The notes beneath the pieces were generated by a model, which was given only the letters and a program-made list of their open reading frames with translations, was not told where the DNA came from and did no database searches. A DNA stretch of 41,373 bases, taken from contig JAGCUZ010000025.1 in assembly GCA_017962615.1 (NCBI GenBank), positions 1 to 41,373 on the forward strand, in the 5' to 3' direction. Position 1 is the stretch's first letter. Every line of letters starts with the position of its first letter. This DNA is from Bacteroidales bacterium. GTDB lineage: Bacteria > Bacteroidota > Bacteroidia > Bacteroidales > P3. Below are positions 3,720-41,373 of this stretch, piece by piece. The position numbers and the translations under genes were made by a program.

Positions 3720-3830
3720 TCAACCCCCTTTTCGGGGTGGTTTTGCCATCAAATATAGGGTACATTTAGAGAAGGTATAGAGATGATAAAGAGTTGGTCC
3801 CACCAACTCCTTATCAACTATATACTTACG
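3720..3830 (+). repeat. Dispersed palindromic element, copy 1
   Basis: The core is GAGTTGGT-CCC-ACCAACTC (3791-3809). It is followed by the tail CTTATCAACTATATACTTA (3808-3826) and preceded by a GTACATTTA block near 3760. The same tail, core and upstream block recur at 41047-41143, both preceded by a C-rich tract. Outer limits are approximate. Confidence 0.75.
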
Positions 3831-4297: not shown

Positions 4298-4495
4298 GAA
4301 ACTGTTTTGATTTTGTCGATGAGATTTATTGGCCATAGAAACGAGATGAAGAAAGTCCAGTGGACTTTCGATAGCGAAGCGGAGAACAATCGCGGTACTG
4401 AGGGCGCAATGGGGTTCCATTGTAACCGAAGGACTGCGGAAAAAGCACCGTTTATATGGCATAAGAAATGCATTGGATAAAATCAAAGCAGTTTC
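4298..4495. mobile_element. MITE-like element, copy 1
   Basis: A 198-bp non-coding element bounded by inverted repeats. The left end GAAACTGTTTTGATTTTGTC matches the complement of the right end (GAAACTGCTTTGATTTTATC) at 18 of 20 positions. TAA flanks both sides (4295-4297 and 4496-4498), consistent with a 3-bp target duplication. Internally it carries TGATGAGATTTATT-like sequence and the block GGCGCAATGGGGTTCCATTG, both shared with the copy at 34309-34470. It also has an internal hairpin (4350-4370) whose relative lies at 40316-40336. No transposase is encoded. Its right end is 26 nt from the next ATG. Confidence 0.75.
4347..4386 (+). repeat. Hairpin plus conserved tail inside MITE copy 1
   Basis: GAAAGTCC-AGT-GGACTTTC forms an 8-bp stem with loop AGT. 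It is followed by GATAGCGAAGCGGAGAA. The same arrangement with a different but still paired stem occurs at 40312-40353. Confidence 0.7.
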
Positions 4496-8676: not shown

Positions 8677-8712
8677 CACGAGGCTTGGCGCACCACTGCA
8701 CCAAGCCTCGTG
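8677..8712 (+). terminator. Hairpin after korB, probable terminator
   Basis: CACGAGGCTTGG (8677-8688) pairs perfectly with CCAAGCCTCGTG (8701-8712) around a 12-nt loop. Only a weak T-rich stretch follows, so it could protect the 3' end rather than terminate by itself. Confidence 0.6.
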
Positions 8713-8760
8713 AGTGTTATATGGAACCTGTGTTTGTTTTGGGCGCGGGCGAAAATAAAT

Positions 8761-8791
8761 TTTGCTACGTCGGAAATAATGTGTAATTTTG
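8761..8791 (+). promoter_or_regulatory. Strong Bacteroidota promoter of the repeat-peptide locus
   Basis: TTTG at 8761-8764 and TAATTTTG at 8784-8791 are separated by 19 bp, matching the -33/-7 consensus and spacing. The expected start is near 8796, leaving about 360 nt of leader before the ATG at 9157. Confidence 0.75.
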
Positions 8792-8795
8792 CAGC

Positions 8796-9156
8796 GTCAT
8801 TACTCCAAGGCCGAGGGAGTCAGTGCTTTTGTTGGCGTCTGATTCTGTAAGGGTTAGGGTGAGTGGCGAGACATAGATATAAGACGTTGAACGGCGTTTT
8901 ATCTGCGGCTACTCGAACTTCGCAACTTCAAGTCCAGCACGATAGAGCAAAGTCAATGTCCATGTTTGCTTACAATTATATTTATTGTACGCATCTAGCG
9001 TGGGCGTTTGGCGTTGTTTATCCTCTGGACAGGGCAATGCGAAGGCCTGAGTAGCGGGATGGGCAAAGTTGGATTCCCGCGCTTCTTCTATTTGTGTTTC
9101 CTCTAATCAGTTATGAAAGCCTGACACTTTCGGGAACCAGTGTCGAACAATATATC
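8796..9156 (+). ncRNA. Long structured leader or small RNA, unassigned
   Basis: Transcribed region between a strong promoter and the repeat-peptide ATG, with no credible gene. Three hairpins are visible near its 3' side. GCGTTGTTT/GGGCAATGC at 9011-9040 has an inner TCC-TCT-GGA. GCGGGA/TCCCGC lies at 9054-9080 and is followed by a pyrimidine-rich stretch. GACACT/AGTGTC lies at 9123-9144, ending 12 nt before the ATG. A short ACTCC/GGAGT stem starts near 8801. It does not match the signatures of tmRNA, RNase P RNA or SRP RNA that I can recognise. It may be a cis-regulatory leader or a separate RNA of about 290 nt ending at the second hairpin. Confidence 0.4.
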
Positions 9157-9414
9157 ATGAAAAAAACAGAGGAAAGAAAGCTGCCAGCATATGTGCCGCC
9201 CACTGTGACGGTGGTGGAGTTCCGCGTTGAGGGTGGCTTTGCCGCCAGCCTGGAGGGTCTGGCGCAGGGCGACAGCTATGGCGACGAACTGTTCAATCGC
9301 CGTGGAAACCTTGAGGGGCTTTCGTCGGGCAGTGACTACGGCAACCGCGACTTCAACAAGCGCGGCGGCCTTGAAGGCCTCACCGAGGACAAAAAATACA
9401 ACAACCTCTTATAA
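9157..9414 (+). CDS. Short peptide with three LEGL repeats
   Basis: An 85-residue protein. The N-terminus MKKTEERKLPAYVPPTVTVVEFRVEGGFAAS resembles leader-like small proteins of Bacteroidota that carry a YxxPT...V..GFAAS pattern. It has no signal peptide. The C-terminal half holds about 2.5 copies of a 20-residue unit: LEGLAQGDSYGDELFNRRGN, LEGLSSGSDYGNRDFNKRGG and the partial LEGLTEDKKYNNLL. The ATG at 9157 is preferred over upstream codons because it starts the conserved MKK segment. It lies downstream of a strong promoter and structured leader and about 450 nt ahead of a large lipoprotein gene. The function is not known; a precursor-peptide or secretion-linked role is only a guess. Confidence 0.75.
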   Translation: MKKTEERKLPAYVPPTVTVVEFRVEGGFAASLEGLAQGDSYGDELFNRRGNLEGLSSGSDYGNRDFNKRGGLEGLTEDKKYNNLL

Positions 9415-9504
9415 TTTGAGAGTTAGAGAAATGATAATGTATAGCGTCATCCCCAGGCCTCGGCAAATCTGGAGAGCCAACCCTGACAAACGTACATCGA
9501 GGGC

Positions 9505-9521
9505 GCGTTTCTCCGAAACGC
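9505..9521 (+). repeat. Solitary TCC-loop hairpin
   Basis: GCGTTTC-TCC-GAAACGC, a 7-bp perfect stem with a trinucleotide loop, preceded by GAGGGC. It is a relative of the second hairpin of the two-hairpin elements. Confidence 0.7.
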
Positions 9522-9540
9522 ATATATATTCTATTTCACA

Positions 9541-9604
9541 ATCCCCACACTGCGCCCTGTCGGGCTTGTGCGGGGTTATTGAGGGTGAGCCTCTCCGAGG
9601 CTCT
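9541..9604 (+). repeat. Two-hairpin intergenic element, copy A
   Basis: First module: CCCCACACTGCGC paired loosely with GCTTGTGCGGGG, followed by TTATTGAGGG. Second module: GAGCCTC-TCC-GAGGCTC (9587-9603). The same order is found in copies at 9691-9755, 40219-40278 and 41271-41328. Confidence 0.75.
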
Positions 9605-9690
9605 TTCTGTAACCGCTACGGTAAGACTATTGATTTGCCCTCTGATGTACCCAATGGGCTTGCTGAGAGAGACGTGTCGAGCGAGTTTGC

Positions 9691-9755
9691 CGGGCTCACA
9701 GCCCCAGCGGGGCTGACCCTCAATAACCCCTGACAAGCGAATCGCAGTCTGGGGT
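9691..9755 (-). repeat. Two-hairpin intergenic element, copy B
   Basis: On the minus strand the first module is CCCCAGACTGCG...TTGTCAGGGG followed by TTATTGAGGG. The second module is CAGCCCC-GCT-GGGGCTG (plus coordinates 9699-9715). It faces copy A. Confidence 0.75.
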
Positions 9756-9777
9756 CTAAGCAACCTCCCCCTATAAT

Positions 9778-9794
9778 GCGTGCCGAAGGTACGC
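9778..9794 (-). repeat. Solitary hairpin of the same family
   Basis: On the minus strand GCGTACC-TTC-GGCACGC, a 7-bp stem with one A-C mismatch, preceded by GAGGGC. Nearly the same hairpin lies at 41233-41249. Confidence 0.65.
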
Positions 9795-9863
9795 GCCCTC
9801 GAAACAGGCATGACATAGTAAACTGAAAAAACAAATAATTATAACACATCAAACACAACTAAT

Positions 9864-11528
9864 ATGAAGAAGATACAGGTTATAATCCTTACACTGGCCA
9901 CGCTGGTGAGCATGGCCTCGTGCGACAAAGACAACCACAAGACCGTGCGCACCTTCCGCGCCACCGCCGAGCGGTCGAAAGACGACGGCAAGATATCGCT
10001 CAGCGGCGGCTCGCTGCTGTGGAGCGCAGGCGACAGCATACGCATCTACGACGGCGGCGGCAACTGCGCCAACTACCTGCTGCTCTCTGGCGCAGGCGAG
10101 GTGGAGGGCGTGTTCGACTACAGCAGCGGCGACGAGATAGCCGAGAGCCCCTACAAGGCCGTCTATCCCGCCCGCTTCTTCTCCGGCAGCAGCCAGATAA
10201 CGCTGCCCAACGTGCAGCGCACCGCCGACGGCAGCCTGCGCGAGCCGCCCATGTACGCTGTGAGCGACGATGAGGAGCTGAGCTTCTACAACGTGTGCGG
10301 CGTGGTGCGCTTCCGCCTCACGGCACGGAGCAGTGTGAACCTGAGGAGCATAGCCCTGACCACCGACGTGGCTACCAACGGCACCGCCACCCTCTCGGGT
10401 TCGGGCACGTCGACGACCATCGGCACGCCCGACGGCACCACCACGACCATACTGCTGTGTGAGACGGCGCAAAGCATAGCGTCGGCGCACGACTTCTACA
10501 TGTACCTGCCCGCAGGCAGCTACACGGGCCTCAGCATACGGCTGATGGCCGACGACAAGTCGTCGTGCACCAAGAGCACCAGCGGCACCATCAACGTGCA
10601 GCGCGGCAAGATATGCACCATAACGCTGACGAACCTCAACTTCACCAACCCCGGCACGCTGCCAGGCGAGTTCTCGGTGGCGGCGGATCGCACGGTGCGT
10701 TTCTCGATGGGCAACCTGCAGTATCAGGCTTCAACAAGCACATGGCATTTAGCTGAGCACCAGTGGGACTATGTGGGATCTCAAAATCCCAGTTATGGTA
10801 GTCGTGGCGGTACTGTGGCAGGTAGCGACAACATTTACATCTCGTCGTCATACAGCGGATGGATAGACCTCTTCGGTTGGGGTACCAGCGGCTACCACGA
10901 CGCTGCCGACAGCTATAACATCTACTACCAGCCTTGGTCAACATCGATGGATACCGTTGACGTGACATACAACTGTTACGGCTATGGTCCTTCAACCAAT
11001 ATGACAGACCTTAACTTGACGGGCACCAGCGCCAATTACGACTGGGGCGTGTACAACGCCATATCGAACGGCGGCAACGCCGCTGGCTTGTGGCGAACAA
11101 TGACAGACCGTGAATGGGAATATCTGATTAACACCCGTTCGGCTTCAACGGTGAACGGCACCGCCAATGCCCGCTACACCAAGGCAATGGTAAACGACAT
11201 TAATGGTGCAATATTCTTCCCTGACAGTTATGCGCACCCAACCGATGTGGCCCAGCCTGTCAACATCAATACTCAAAGCGGACACCATACTGATAACATG
11301 TATACGACTAATGACTGGATGGCTATGGAGGCCTGCGGAGCGGTGTTCCTGCCGGCTGCCGGTCGCCGTAACGGTACACGGTTCCTCGGAGCAAGAGGTT
11401 CATACTGGACGGCCTCGATGTCCACTAATTACTTCGCGAGATCCCTGAACTTCGATGATGCCAATATGAACATACCCACCAACAACAAACGTTACGACGG
11501 CCGTTCGGTGCGTCTTGTCAAAGACTAA
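9864..11528 (+). CDS. Lipoprotein: fimbrillin-like N-terminus, C-type-lectin-like paralogous C-terminus
   Basis: A 554-residue cell-surface lipoprotein candidate. The signal peptide MKKIQVIILTLATLVSMASC ends in a lipobox with Cys20. Residues about 30-260 resemble fimbrillin-type domains (LLWSAGDSIRIYDG, YKAVYPARFF, FYMYLPAGSY). From about 270 a different domain begins (EFSVAADRTVRFSMGNLQYQ, WIDLFGWGTSGY, WGVYNAISNGG, LWRTMTDREWEYL, GAVFLPAAGRRNG). It ends in GSYWTAS...GRSVRLVKD, a tail typical of large Bacteroidota paralogous families with a C-type-lectin-like fold. Codon use changes from almost exclusively G/C-ending before about 10720 to mixed after it. A terminator follows. The ligand is unknown. 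Confidence 0.8.
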   Translation: MKKIQVIILTLATLVSMASCDKDNHKTVRTFRATAERSKDDGKISLSGGSLLWSAGDSIRIYDGGGNCANYLLLSGAGEVEGVFDYSSGDEIAESPYKAVYPARFFSGSSQITLPNVQRTADGSLREPPMYAVSDDEELSFYNVCGVVRFRLTARSSVNLRSIALTTDVATNGTATLSGSGTSTTIGTPDGTTTTILLCETAQSIASAHDFYMYLPAGSYTGLSIRLMADDKSSCTKSTSGTINVQRGKICTITLTNLNFTNPGTLPGEFSVAADRTVRFSMGNLQYQASTSTWHLAEHQWDYVGSQNPSYGSRGGTVAGSDNIYISSSYSGWIDLFGWGTSGYHDAADSYNIYYQPWSTSMDTVDVTYNCYGYGPSTNMTDLNLTGTSANYDWGVYNAISNGGNAAGLWRTMTDREWEYLINTRSASTVNGTANARYTKAMVNDINGAIFFPDSYAHPTDVAQPVNINTQSGHHTDNMYTTNDWMAMEACGAVFLPAAGRRNGTRFLGARGSYWTASMSTNYFARSLNFDDANMNIPTNNKRYDGRSVRLVKD

Positions 11529-39787: not shown

Positions 39788-40132
39788 TCACACCAGATGG
39801 TTGTTTTTGGGGAATATGACCGTGGGAGTCCAGCGCTTGGCCTCTTCAAAATCCATAGAGGCATACGAGGCAATGATTATCAGGTCGCCCACCTTCACCT
39901 TGTGCGCGGCGGCGCCGTTGATGCCCACCACGCCCGTTCCACGGTCGCCCTTGATGGCATAAGTGCTCAGACGCTCGCCGTTGGTTATGTTGTATATATC
40001 CACCCGCTCGTTCTCAATCATGCCGGCAGCATCCATCAAATCCTCGTCGATGGTGATGCTTCCTATATATTCAAGGTCAGCCTCGGTAACGGTAACTCTA
40101 TGTATTTTAGACTTTAGGACTTCAACAAACAT
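39788..40132 (-). CDS. panD: Aspartate 1-decarboxylase
   Basis: A 114-residue pyruvoyl enzyme making beta-alanine for pantothenate. The self-cleavage site is Gly24-Ser25 in EYIGSITID, exactly at the family position when the start is the ATG at 40132. An in-frame TTG at 40150 would overlap the promoter box and is rejected. Other motifs are [41 protein letters not shown]. It heads the minus-strand run panD, flippase-like gene, rfaE2, barrel gene, trxB, porin gene. No panC is adjacent; the upstream region holds repeats. Confidence 0.96.
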
Positions 40133-40147
40133 CGTATTATTTTTTTG

Positions 40148-40155
40148 CAAAGATA
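40148..40155 (-). promoter_or_regulatory. Promoter of the panD operon, -7 box
   Basis: Minus-strand TATCTTTG matches TAnnTTTG, 15 nt upstream of the panD ATG. The leader would be about 10 nt. Confidence 0.65.
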
Positions 40156-40218: not shown

Positions 40219-40278
40219 AAAAGTCCCGGAGGGACTTACTCTCAATAACCCCTGACTAAACGAAGTGCAGTCTGGGGT
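40219..40278 (-). repeat. Two-hairpin intergenic element, copy C
   Basis: On the minus strand the first module is CCCCAGACTGCACTTCG...TTAGTCAGGGG followed by TTATTGAGAG. The second module is AAGTCCC-TCC-GGGACTT (plus coordinates 40221-40237), a 7-bp perfect stem with loop TCC. Confidence 0.75.
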
Positions 40279-40311
40279 ACTGGAAACCAAAGATATCTAT
40301 GCGTCTCGGTG

Positions 40312-40353
40312 TGAAGAAACATCCAGTGGATGTTTCGATAGCGCAGCGGAGAA
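40312..40353 (+). repeat. Hairpin plus conserved tail, relative of the MITE-internal block
   Basis: GAAACATCC-AGT-GGATGTTTC forms a 9-bp perfect stem, followed by GATAGCGCAGCGGAGAA. It matches 4347-4386 in loop, tail and preceding TGAAGAAA, while the outer stem differs by compensating changes. Confidence 0.7.
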
Positions 40354-40384
40354 TTGGCGCACGATATAATTCAAGTATAACATT

Positions 40385-40876
40385 TTAGAAGAATATAAAA
40401 ACAAGCAGCAACAGCACAAGGCCCACATACAGTATTATCTTGCCCGCCGACACGGGACGCATATAGTCGGGGTCGTCGAAGTCGAAGCGCCGCCCTATGC
40501 GCCGCCTCTTGGCCGGTTTCTCGTAGCTCTGGCCCTGCCCATTGGCGGCCTCCCCGTCGGCGCCGAGGCGCGAAGTGTAATGAAACTGAGGCTTCTCACG
40601 GCGGCGGAACAGGTCTTTCCACGACAGCTGCGCGCTGCGCTGCCTATTCCGGCTATCAATCTCACGCACCCTCTTCTGGAAATACTCCAAGTCGGCACCG
40701 CCTTCAGCCGACTCCTTTTCGGCGGCGGCAGCGGGCGCAGGTTCGTTCTTTGCCTCATCCTCCGACTGTTGTGCCGCATATATTTTCTTTCTGCGCTCCA
40801 AGTCCTCAAGCTCAGGGTCGTATGTGCGCGGTATGTAGTGGAACTGACGCGGCTGTGGTGTATAAAGCATTGGCAT
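40385..40876 (-). CDS. Small C-terminally membrane-anchored protein, unknown function
   Basis: A 163-residue protein. It opens with MPMLYTPQPRQFHYIPRTYDPELEDLERRKKIY, a motif seen in conserved hypothetical proteins of Bacteroidales. An acidic/alanine-rich linker (APAAAAEKESAEGGADLEYF), basic stretches (KRRRIGRRFDFDDPDYM) and a single C-terminal membrane helix (AGKIILYVGLVLLLLVFIFF) follow. The topology is probably tail-anchored with a cytoplasmic head. The PRQFHY phrase recurs weakly as KPQFHYTSR near residue 100. The start is either ATG 40876 or 40870; a TTG at 40885 is less likely. No function can be assigned. Confidence 0.75.
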   Translation of the reverse strand: MPMLYTPQPRQFHYIPRTYDPELEDLERRKKIYAAQQSEDEAKNEPAPAAAAEKESAEGGADLEYFQKRVREIDSRNRQRSAQLSWKDLFRRREKPQFHYTSRLGADGEAANGQGQSYEKPAKRRRIGRRFDFDDPDYMRPVSAGKIILYVGLVLLLLVFIFF

Positions 40877-41046
40877 AGCTGTCAAGAAATATATTTGATA
40901 GTTTCAAACCAGTTTTCCATAAGAACGCCCGTTTCGCAATAATATTGTATGCCCCCGACACCAATCCATATAATGCCCTATTCACGACCAATCCATACAC
41001 AAGCCGCACCCCTATCCCACCCTTCTCCCGACCGGTCTTCACCCCC

Positions 41047-41143
41047 GTTTCAACCTAAACAAATAGTACATTTATAGAACATAAGGAGTACATAAGGAGT
41101 TGGTCCGACCAACTCCTTATCAACTATATACTTACTCCTTATG
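41047..41143 (+). repeat. Dispersed palindromic element, copy 2
   Basis: ATAAGGAGTTGGTC (41092-41105) is perfectly complementary to 41107-41120 with one central C. An outer pair CATAAGGAG (41080-41088) and CTCCTTATG (41135-41143) extends the symmetry. The tail CTTATCAACTATATACTTA and the GTACATTTA block upstream match the copy at 3720-3830. Confidence 0.8.
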
Positions 41144-41232
41144 AAAAATTTGTCATTTTCGGCATTTCGACGCAATATTTGAAAGTCTTATGCGTTATGG
41201 GGTTGTTGTATGAATGACTGTTGTTTGAGAGC

Positions 41233-41249
41233 GCGTACCTCCGGCACGC
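41233..41249 (+). repeat. Solitary TCC-loop hairpin
   Basis: GCGTACC-TCC-GGCACGC, a 7-bp stem with one A-C mismatch, preceded by GAGAGC. It is nearly identical to the minus-strand hairpin at 9778-9794. Confidence 0.65.
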
Positions 41250-41270
41250 TGATGATGGATGAGGCTGCCA

Positions 41271-41328
41271 ATCCCCACACTGCGCTACGCTTGTGCGGGG
41301 TTATGGAGAGCACGTGCCGCTGGCACGC
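41271..41328 (+). repeat. Two-hairpin intergenic element, copy D
   Basis: First module CCCCACACTGCGC...TTGTGCGGGG followed by TTATGGAGAG. Second module CGTGCC-GCT-GGCACG (41313-41327), a 6-bp perfect stem with loop GCT. Confidence 0.75.
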
Positions 41329-41373
41329 AAATGACGCGGCTTCGTCAGGCAGTGTATTTATACAGACAAATTC

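Follow-up and report, generated by a model that had tools for sequence, protein, structure and literature searches.

Tagged three-hairpin repeats of Bacteroidales as probable REP/REPIN-like elements associated with an IS200-like transposase

We consider it probable that the repeats described here, from Bacteroidales, are mobile single-stranded DNA elements of a REP/REPIN-like kind and are mobilised in trans by an IS200-like HUH enzyme of subclass 1.2. The repeats were found in a stretch of 41,373 nucleotides (the window), and the genome holding the window consists of 2.0 Mb in 71 contigs and is 67% complete. The copies were dispersed, mostly outside long ORFs, arranged in inverted pairs, covarying in their stems and, in relatives, placed at the flanks of a Y1 transposase gene. 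The first-pass annotation had taken the maintained folding as the mark of REP-like elements or of a small structured RNA; the REP-like half was borne out, and the structured RNA found no support in the Rfam search, the T-runs, the gene orientations or the empty site at panD.

Module structure and copies in the window

The module contained, in order, the tag GAGRGC with hairpin h, about 22 nucleotides, hairpin H1, the linker TTATNGAGRGY and hairpin H2. The hairpins h and H2 were similar in tag and shape, with 7-bp stems and 3-nucleotide loops. H1 contained CCCC-A-(C/G)AC-TGC followed by an inner stem, variable in length and sequence, and TT-GT(G/C)-(C/A)-GGGG, with two conserved internal loops. 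Hairpin h was present upstream of H1 in 37 of the 46 copies of the genome, at a distance of 18–25 nucleotides (median 22); nine of the 46 were without an intact h, one of them at a contig end and three with h split by another repeat. Among the 37 h hairpins, nine (GCGTACC...GGCACGC) had an A.C mismatch that marked the tag strand. When H2 was read as 7-3-7, seven Watson-Crick pairs were found in 20 of the 23 exact-motif copies; the exceptions were L012 with two mismatches, L015 with one G.T pair and the window copy at 41312–41328 with one A.C mismatch at the foot.

The window contained four copies, with cores at 9543–9603 (plus strand), 9699–9754 (minus), 40221–40277 (minus) and 41273–41328 (plus). 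These had been described as two-hairpin elements with the order CCCCA.ACTGC...GAG(A/G)G and a following hairpin. All four were present at the positions claimed, and the stems and trinucleotide loops of the second hairpins matched the earlier description. That description was incomplete, as the module consists of three hairpins (h, H1 and H2), and the presumed solitary relatives at 9505, 9778 and 41233 were found to be hairpin h of the same modules, 21–23 nucleotides before H1.

The module parts were located in the sequence, and the H1 hairpins also in the alignments. Module 1 (plus) contained the tag GAGGGC and h (GCGTTTC-TCC-GAAACGC) at 9499–9521, H1 in its long inner-stem form (CCCC-A-CAC-TGC-inner stem-TT-GTG-C-GGGG) at 9543–9575, and the linker TTATTGAGGGT, carrying the tag GAGRGY, with H2 (GAGCCTC-TCC-GAGGCTC) at 9576–9603. 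Its inverted partner, module 2 (minus), contained H2 (CAGCCCC-GCT-GGGGCTG) and the linker TTATTGAGGGT at 9699–9726, the GAC/GTC variant of H1 at 9727–9754, and h (GCGTACC-TTC-GGCACGC, with the A.C mismatch on the tag strand) and the tag GAGGGC at 9778–9800. From their spacing and fold, modules 1 and 2 were read as a REPIN-like inverted (convergent) doublet, h-H1-H2 ... H2-H1-h, at 9499–9800; as single-stranded DNA, 9495–9800 formed a long structure with a z of -6.9, and none of 100 shuffles folded as well. Module 3 (minus), upstream of a panD-like gene (39791–40150, minus), contained H2 (AAGTCCC-TCC-GGGACTT) and the linker at 40221–40248 and H1 at 40249–40277. Its h, at 40301–40360, was split by an unrelated hairpin repeat; by eye, the same split was present in the copies at C28 1756 and C63 2455, and no intact h was found in module 3. 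Module 4 (plus) contained the tag GAGAGC and h (GCGTACC-TCC-GGCACGC, with the A.C mismatch) at 41227–41249, H1 at 41273–41300, and the linker TTATGGAGAGC with H2 (ACGTGCC-GCT-GGCACGC) at 41301–41328.

Other repeats were also present in the window. A second hairpin family contained GAAAGTC-CAGTG-GACTTTC or GAAACATC-CAGTG-GATGTTTC, followed by GATAGCGNAGCGGAGAA. It was found alone at 4351–4385 and again at about 40308–40358, and also in C28 (L005) and C63 (L014) of the same genome (G000). That this family interrupts h in three main-element modules suggests a preferred target. Two perfect hairpins at 3791–3809 and 41092–41120 (GAGTTGGTCCCACCAACTC and ATAAGGAGTTGGTCCGACCAACTCCTTAT) had the common tail CTTATCAACTATATACTTAC and probably represent a third repeat family.

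Family size, covariation and genomic location

Exact matches to the motif GGGGTTATNGAGRG numbered 23 across the 2.0 Mb genome, against none for the motif read backwards. A covariance model trained on 21 copies gave at least 46 matches of at least 59 bits in the same genome, the next score being 41.5 bits; 46 is a lower bound, as scoring covered 150 of the 1037 first-look candidates. A chance origin of the family is excluded, because of the 23 forward against no reversed occurrences and the 46 strong matches followed by a gap in score. The compensatory change in the stems, which had been inferred from four copies, extended well beyond them. In a MAFFT alignment of 21 rows, 97.6% of the cells were paired and 54 cells were double-changed, against a shuffle mean of 18.1 and 0–6 in slid controls. 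In the model-fitted alignment of 46 rows (45 distinct), 98.6% were paired and 128 were double-changed, against 44.9 in shuffles and 0–12 in slid controls. Further pair types showed no excess over the shuffles (12 against 12.4 in 21 rows; 15 against 14.5 in 46 rows). The covariance model and genome search that the first-pass annotation had proposed thus gave at least 46 strong copies in the own genome and matches in 44 of the 59 genomes of the genus.

The copies were found mostly outside long ORFs. Only 3 of the 46 copies lay inside ORFs of at least 200 aa, against 68% of random 56-mers; the corresponding values were 2 of 46 against 61% for ORFs of at least 250 aa, 7 against 74% for at least 150 aa and 15 against 76% for at least 100 aa. 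Thirty of the 46 copies sat in pairs closer than 600 bp. The 16 neighbouring pairs comprised 10 divergent, 5 convergent and 1 direct, so that 15 of 16 were inverted. The 10 divergent pairs were copies of one dispersed unit, [H2-H1-h] core [h-H1-H2]. Seven of these units were 310–326 bp long, one was 226 bp with part of the core lost, and two were 357 and 364 bp with inserts. The mean pairwise identity was 0.88 and 0.71 in the 40 nucleotides inside the two ends, and 0.34 and 0.35 in the 40 nucleotides outside; some unit copies had an outer flank in common, with identities of up to 0.82 even without C69.

A passive repeat that spread without any active enzyme, through segmental duplication or recombination, would account for the flanks shared by C63 and C69 and by the start of C38 and the end of the window, and also for the 11 of 46 copies found no more than 300 bp from a contig end. 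We regard it as very unlikely, since the mean identity of the unit flanks was near chance (0.34–0.35) and copy number tracked a transposase clade, as described below. Near-identical, although not identical, modules with shared flanks were observed at the contig end (window 41225–41373) and at C38:1–320 (L009, L172); given the copies at contig ends, the repeats may break the assembly.

An empty site was found at panD, where module 3 (40221–40277) lies between the panD-like gene and a gene at 40388–40885. A match was present in 55 of the 59 genomes, and the own locus was compared with the 29 best relatives; both genes were present in 27 of these 30 loci, and the three without the second gene were dropped. 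The intergenic spacing was 255 bp in the window, with the module, 7–160 bp in 25 of the 26 relatives and 308 bp in L223. The covariance model (E<=0.01) gave module matches at the own locus, and the 29 loci of the relatives gave none. Occupancy of the site is thus polymorphic between species, at a panD identity of 73–83%, a distance at which the exact junction is not visible. The region 8700–10600 was also tried as an empty site and was left out, its matches being paralogous gene families.

The hairpins could instead be parts of structured RNAs, such as terminators, attenuators or stabilisers of 3' UTRs, and be maintained for a function in RNA, with only an incidental link to a transposase. The strong covariation and the mostly non-coding location fit such a function, and so does module 3 of the window, which shares the strand of panD and probably falls within its leader. 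However, the sole Rfam match in the whole window was a tRNA at 1511–1593, and the copies were found between genes of all relative orientations (from noisy gene calls at 100 aa, with one side unknown for 16 of the 46). The first-pass annotation had itself named, as the case against its proposal, copies that are only parts of ordinary terminators; a T-run of at least four within 12 nucleotides after H2 was present in just 4 of the 46 copies, and the intrinsic terminator was dropped as a candidate. The modules moreover bracket transposase genes in inverted order, and the panD site was empty in 26 relatives. A role in RNA therefore deserves very little credence.

The associated transposase

Two Y1_Tnp genes were present in the own genome, both flanked by hairpins with other tags, and a GAGR-type transposase gene was not found in this 67%-complete assembly. 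The matching gene may be in the missing part of the assembly or may have been lost. A dedicated transposase of the TnpA-REP/Y1 type had been suggested as something to look for in the same genome; it was in relatives that a Y1 gene flanked by the modules was found. In G001, G005 and G002, read base by base, GAGR modules flanked the Y1 gene in inverted orientation, with a degenerate tag in one h of G001 and GAAAGC in one linker of G002. The Y1 gene was likewise bracketed in G059, G043 and G042, according to the model matches, the protein matches and the tagged hairpins at the gene ends. In L044 the order was [H2-H1-h](-), gene, [h-H1-H2](+), followed by two further modules, the first inverted and the second direct. 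Each of these six draft genomes contained one GAGR-type gene (that of G042 without 14 aa) and between 5 and 58 model matches.

Palindromes were also observed at other Y1 genes. Several of those from other subclades (L016 and L017 of the own genome; L030–L052 of relatives) carried distinct palindromes at the two ends of the gene, such as CGTGGGTTTGCACCCACG or types like CAGGGG-NNNN-CCCCTG, which suggests parallel REP-like systems within one genus. In L017, compound elements with CACGG-CACTGCG...CTTGTA-CCGTG-TTAATCAAAGTC-hairpin were found at about 1980–2068 and 2360–2448, beside the TGTC-tagged transposase of the own genome; by eye, they look like a diverged H1-linker-H2 architecture.

The transposase flanked by GAGR modules was 149 aa long and contained the motifs DHVH and YIKGQKEHH or YIKNQKEHH, and H53, H55 and Y113 were invariant across seven aligned proteins. 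The L044 protein scored 53.5 bits on the IS200/IS605 NCBIfam model and that of L017 54.9 bits, both below the cut-off of 55. On the REP-transposase model NF047646 the L044 protein reached 25.4 bits against a cut-off of 80, and is thus not a class 2 TnpA-REP. The TnpA of IS608 was among the eight solved sequences that matched the transposase by sequence. In a comparison with Table 1 of PMC6006769, the motifs DH[IV]H and Y---Q--HH and the length of about 148 aa given for subclass 1.2 were all found, and by these motifs the enzyme matches subclass 1.2 TnpA-Y1.

The contigs of the genomes were scanned with the seven-protein alignment, and the best 80 of 211 relatives were kept; by record title, 79 belonged to Bacteroidota and one (L056) to Clostridia. 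An outward-facing tagged hairpin was present on both sides, within 250 bp, in 49 of the 80 loci. Among the 74 loci with full 250-bp flanks, 47 were two-sided, against a mean of 0.4 (at most 2) in first-order resampled flanks, with a loop set chosen after the loci had been inspected; the remaining 27 of the 74 failed the test. On the protein tree, 8 changes accounted for the h tags of the 39 rows with a label, where shuffles gave 21.1 on average and none of 200 was as low; the H2 linker classes of 71 rows required 16 changes against 27.9. The GTG tag label showed no clustering on the tree (4 changes against 4.0). The GAGR tag was found in a single starred clade of 10 rows, 8 tagged and 2 unlabelled, and hairpin feet of GTA, GTC, GTG or GTT occurred in other transposase subclades. 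The agreement between tag and tree is a clade-specific pairing and not proof of binding, because tags are inherited together with the gene.

The copy number of the module followed the presence of the enzyme. In a survey of the 59 genomes of the genus, own genome included (model E<=1e-6, stricter filters, 96 candidates scored per genome), modules were found in the 44 genomes noted above, the highest count being at least 58, and 22 of the 59 had a protein match of the transposase clade (E<=1e-55). The median module count was 25 in the 22 genomes with the clade and 1 in the 37 without it (p = 7e-7); for the 34 genomes that were at least 90% complete the medians were again 25 and 1 (p = 2e-5). Among genomes with no clade match, G054 (93% complete) had 22 copies, and G006, G052 and G065 (72–88% complete) had 15–25. 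A clade protein with fewer than 10 copies was found in G001 (5), G048 (8), G050 (5) and G060 (6), and G019 and G047 had the protein and no copies. It was also observed that L206 (G017:C14) contained a clade transposase with an internal TGA, which seems decayed, in a genome that keeps 33 model matches.

The type of linker was compared in 13 of the 22 genomes, which could be classed by their gene flanks, the nine with other or unclear tags being left out. The number of GAGR minus GGAT linkers was +4 to +35 in the six GAGR-flanked genomes and -3 to +1 in the seven GGAT-flanked genomes (p = 0.0006); without the linkers at the gene itself it was +2 to +31 against -3 to +6 (p = 0.007). Away from the gene, the median number of GAGR linkers was 10.5 in the six genomes against 1 in the seven (p = 0.009), whereas GGAT linkers showed no significant difference among the 13 genomes (p = 0.13); the match between linker type and transposase type is therefore supported for GAGR only. 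Reversed-pattern controls gave 0–3 matches per genome. G045 and G073 contained 8 and 5 GAGR linkers, respectively, with a GGAT-flanked gene as the only one found, and G024, G054 and G051 contained 11, 14 and 7 GAGR linkers, respectively, without a GAGR-flanked gene. G065 had 15 model matches and 14 linkers of the GGAT type, and no clade transposase was found in it. The tests of copy number and of type are not independent proof of recognition, because tags and genes are co-inherited and the species share descent, and the tests ignore kinship.

The modules might also be the ends of ordinary IS200/IS605-type insertion sequences together with MITE-like internal deletions, so that the whole IS moves and there is no REPtron. 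The units of about 310 bp share the order of their ends with the transposase-bearing loci, and the protein came closer to the cut-off on the IS200/IS605 model than on the REP model (the scores given above). Against this, each of the six genomes had one GAGR-type gene to its 5 to 58 model matches, unlike a multi-copy IS, each end was an inverted copy of the other, with no separate left and right types, and no obvious remnant of a transposase was seen by eye in the core of the unit. We consider this explanation unlikely.

For the preferred reading, mobilisation of REP/REPIN-like elements in trans, a mechanism can be proposed that is modelled on the cleavage by TnpA-REP published in PMC8266576, where, in the passages compared, the enzymes of E. 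coli and Stenotrophomonas cut single-stranded REPs beside the hairpin, dependent on the GTAG tag. The HUH tyrosine transposase of about 149 aa (IS200-like, subclass 1.2) would bind the GAGRGY-tagged triloop hairpins in single-stranded DNA and nick beside them through Tyr113, with the tag as guide, and inverted pairs of modules would be copied or moved by it in trans. H1, with its two conserved internal loops, may be a further contact or a spacing element. Binding, the cleavage site, the single-stranded intermediate and present-day mobilisation by the enzyme are what we infer for this system.

Comparison with known systems

IS200/IS605 elements and their non-autonomous derivatives (PATEs) have hairpins with 5' guide-like tags and include miniature derivatives. 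The likeness to our system is in the TnpA-fold HUH enzyme with a catalytic tyrosine, for which the TnpA of IS608 is a solved sequence relative. The difference is in the symmetric inverted ends, the one gene of the type in each of the six genomes examined and the many enzyme-free copies.

The REP/REPIN-RAYT systems of gamma-proteobacteria, as far as described in the passages compared (PMC2817692, PMC3116915, PMC6006769, PMC8266576), also have short, 5'-tagged hairpins that are scattered mainly outside long ORFs and arranged in inverted doublets, an HUH-Y1 gene flanked by inverted copies, and a tag type that varies with the transposase; the REPs of S. maltophilia in these passages include an 8-bp perfect palindrome with a 3-nucleotide loop. 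The tag here is GAGRGY instead of GTAG/GTGG, the module has three hairpins, the internal-loop H1 standing between two tagged ones that point the same way, and the enzyme is IS200-like and not of class 2. No counterpart of an H1 flanked by two tagged hairpins of like orientation was present in the passages of the REP literature compared, and the literature matches listed contained no earlier description in Bacteroidales. Judged from sequence, both tag and transposase differ from the canonical GTAG and class 2 TnpA-REP kind. REPs usually have more than 100 copies, and here at least 46 were found in the 67%-complete genome, with a maximum of at least 58 among the 59 genomes; Table 1 of PMC2817692, in the part available, also includes REPs with tens of copies. 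The family is not filed as a canonical REP, although it behaves like one, because the GTAG/GTGG foot and a class 2 enzyme were looked for and were not found.

It is quite possible, although we hold it only tentatively, that a further REP world is run by subclass 1.2 transposases in Bacteroidales, with composite three-hairpin modules and a code of tags and linkers (GAGR, GGAT and others) that diversified with the enzyme, and that such REP-like systems had an origin in IS200-type ancestors independent of class 2 and perhaps of class 3. If true, this would suggest more than one origin of REP-type systems from IS200-like ancestors, would extend REP/REPIN biology to uncultured gut and rumen Bacteroidales, with repeats also at the ends of draft contigs, and would offer a natural series of tag and enzyme pairs for testing how single-strand transposases read their guides.

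Precedents for REP-like repeats without GTAG have been published. In the passages compared from PMC6006769, subclass 2.6 is mostly from Bacteroidetes and has REP-like repeats without GT[AG]G, of atypical structure. Class 3, in the same passages, combines a Y motif like that of class 1 with a CnGA foot; its repeats number up to about 600, and it resembles both IS and REPtrons and is possibly intermediate between the two. By the descriptions given there, both are set apart from our enzyme: subclass 2.6 contains NH[LIV]H and YIH[QN]NP, whereas DHVH and YIK[NG]QKEHH were found here, and class 3 contains NHVH and YV[VI][AENY]EQ and comes from other phyla. The motifs of our enzyme match those that Quentin et al. 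(2018, PMC6006769) give for subclass 1.2 TnpA-Y1, which in the parts compared is of about 149 aa, with DHVH and YIKNQKEHH/YIKGQKEHH, low in copy number and from Bacteroidetes. Table 1 of that paper gives 'no' under REP for this subclass, which is described as generally without the typical terminal structures of IS200. If our reading is true, this entry would be corrected: the Bacteroidales members described here are flanked by tagged hairpins, and hairpins of the GAGR type are dispersed in the genomes.
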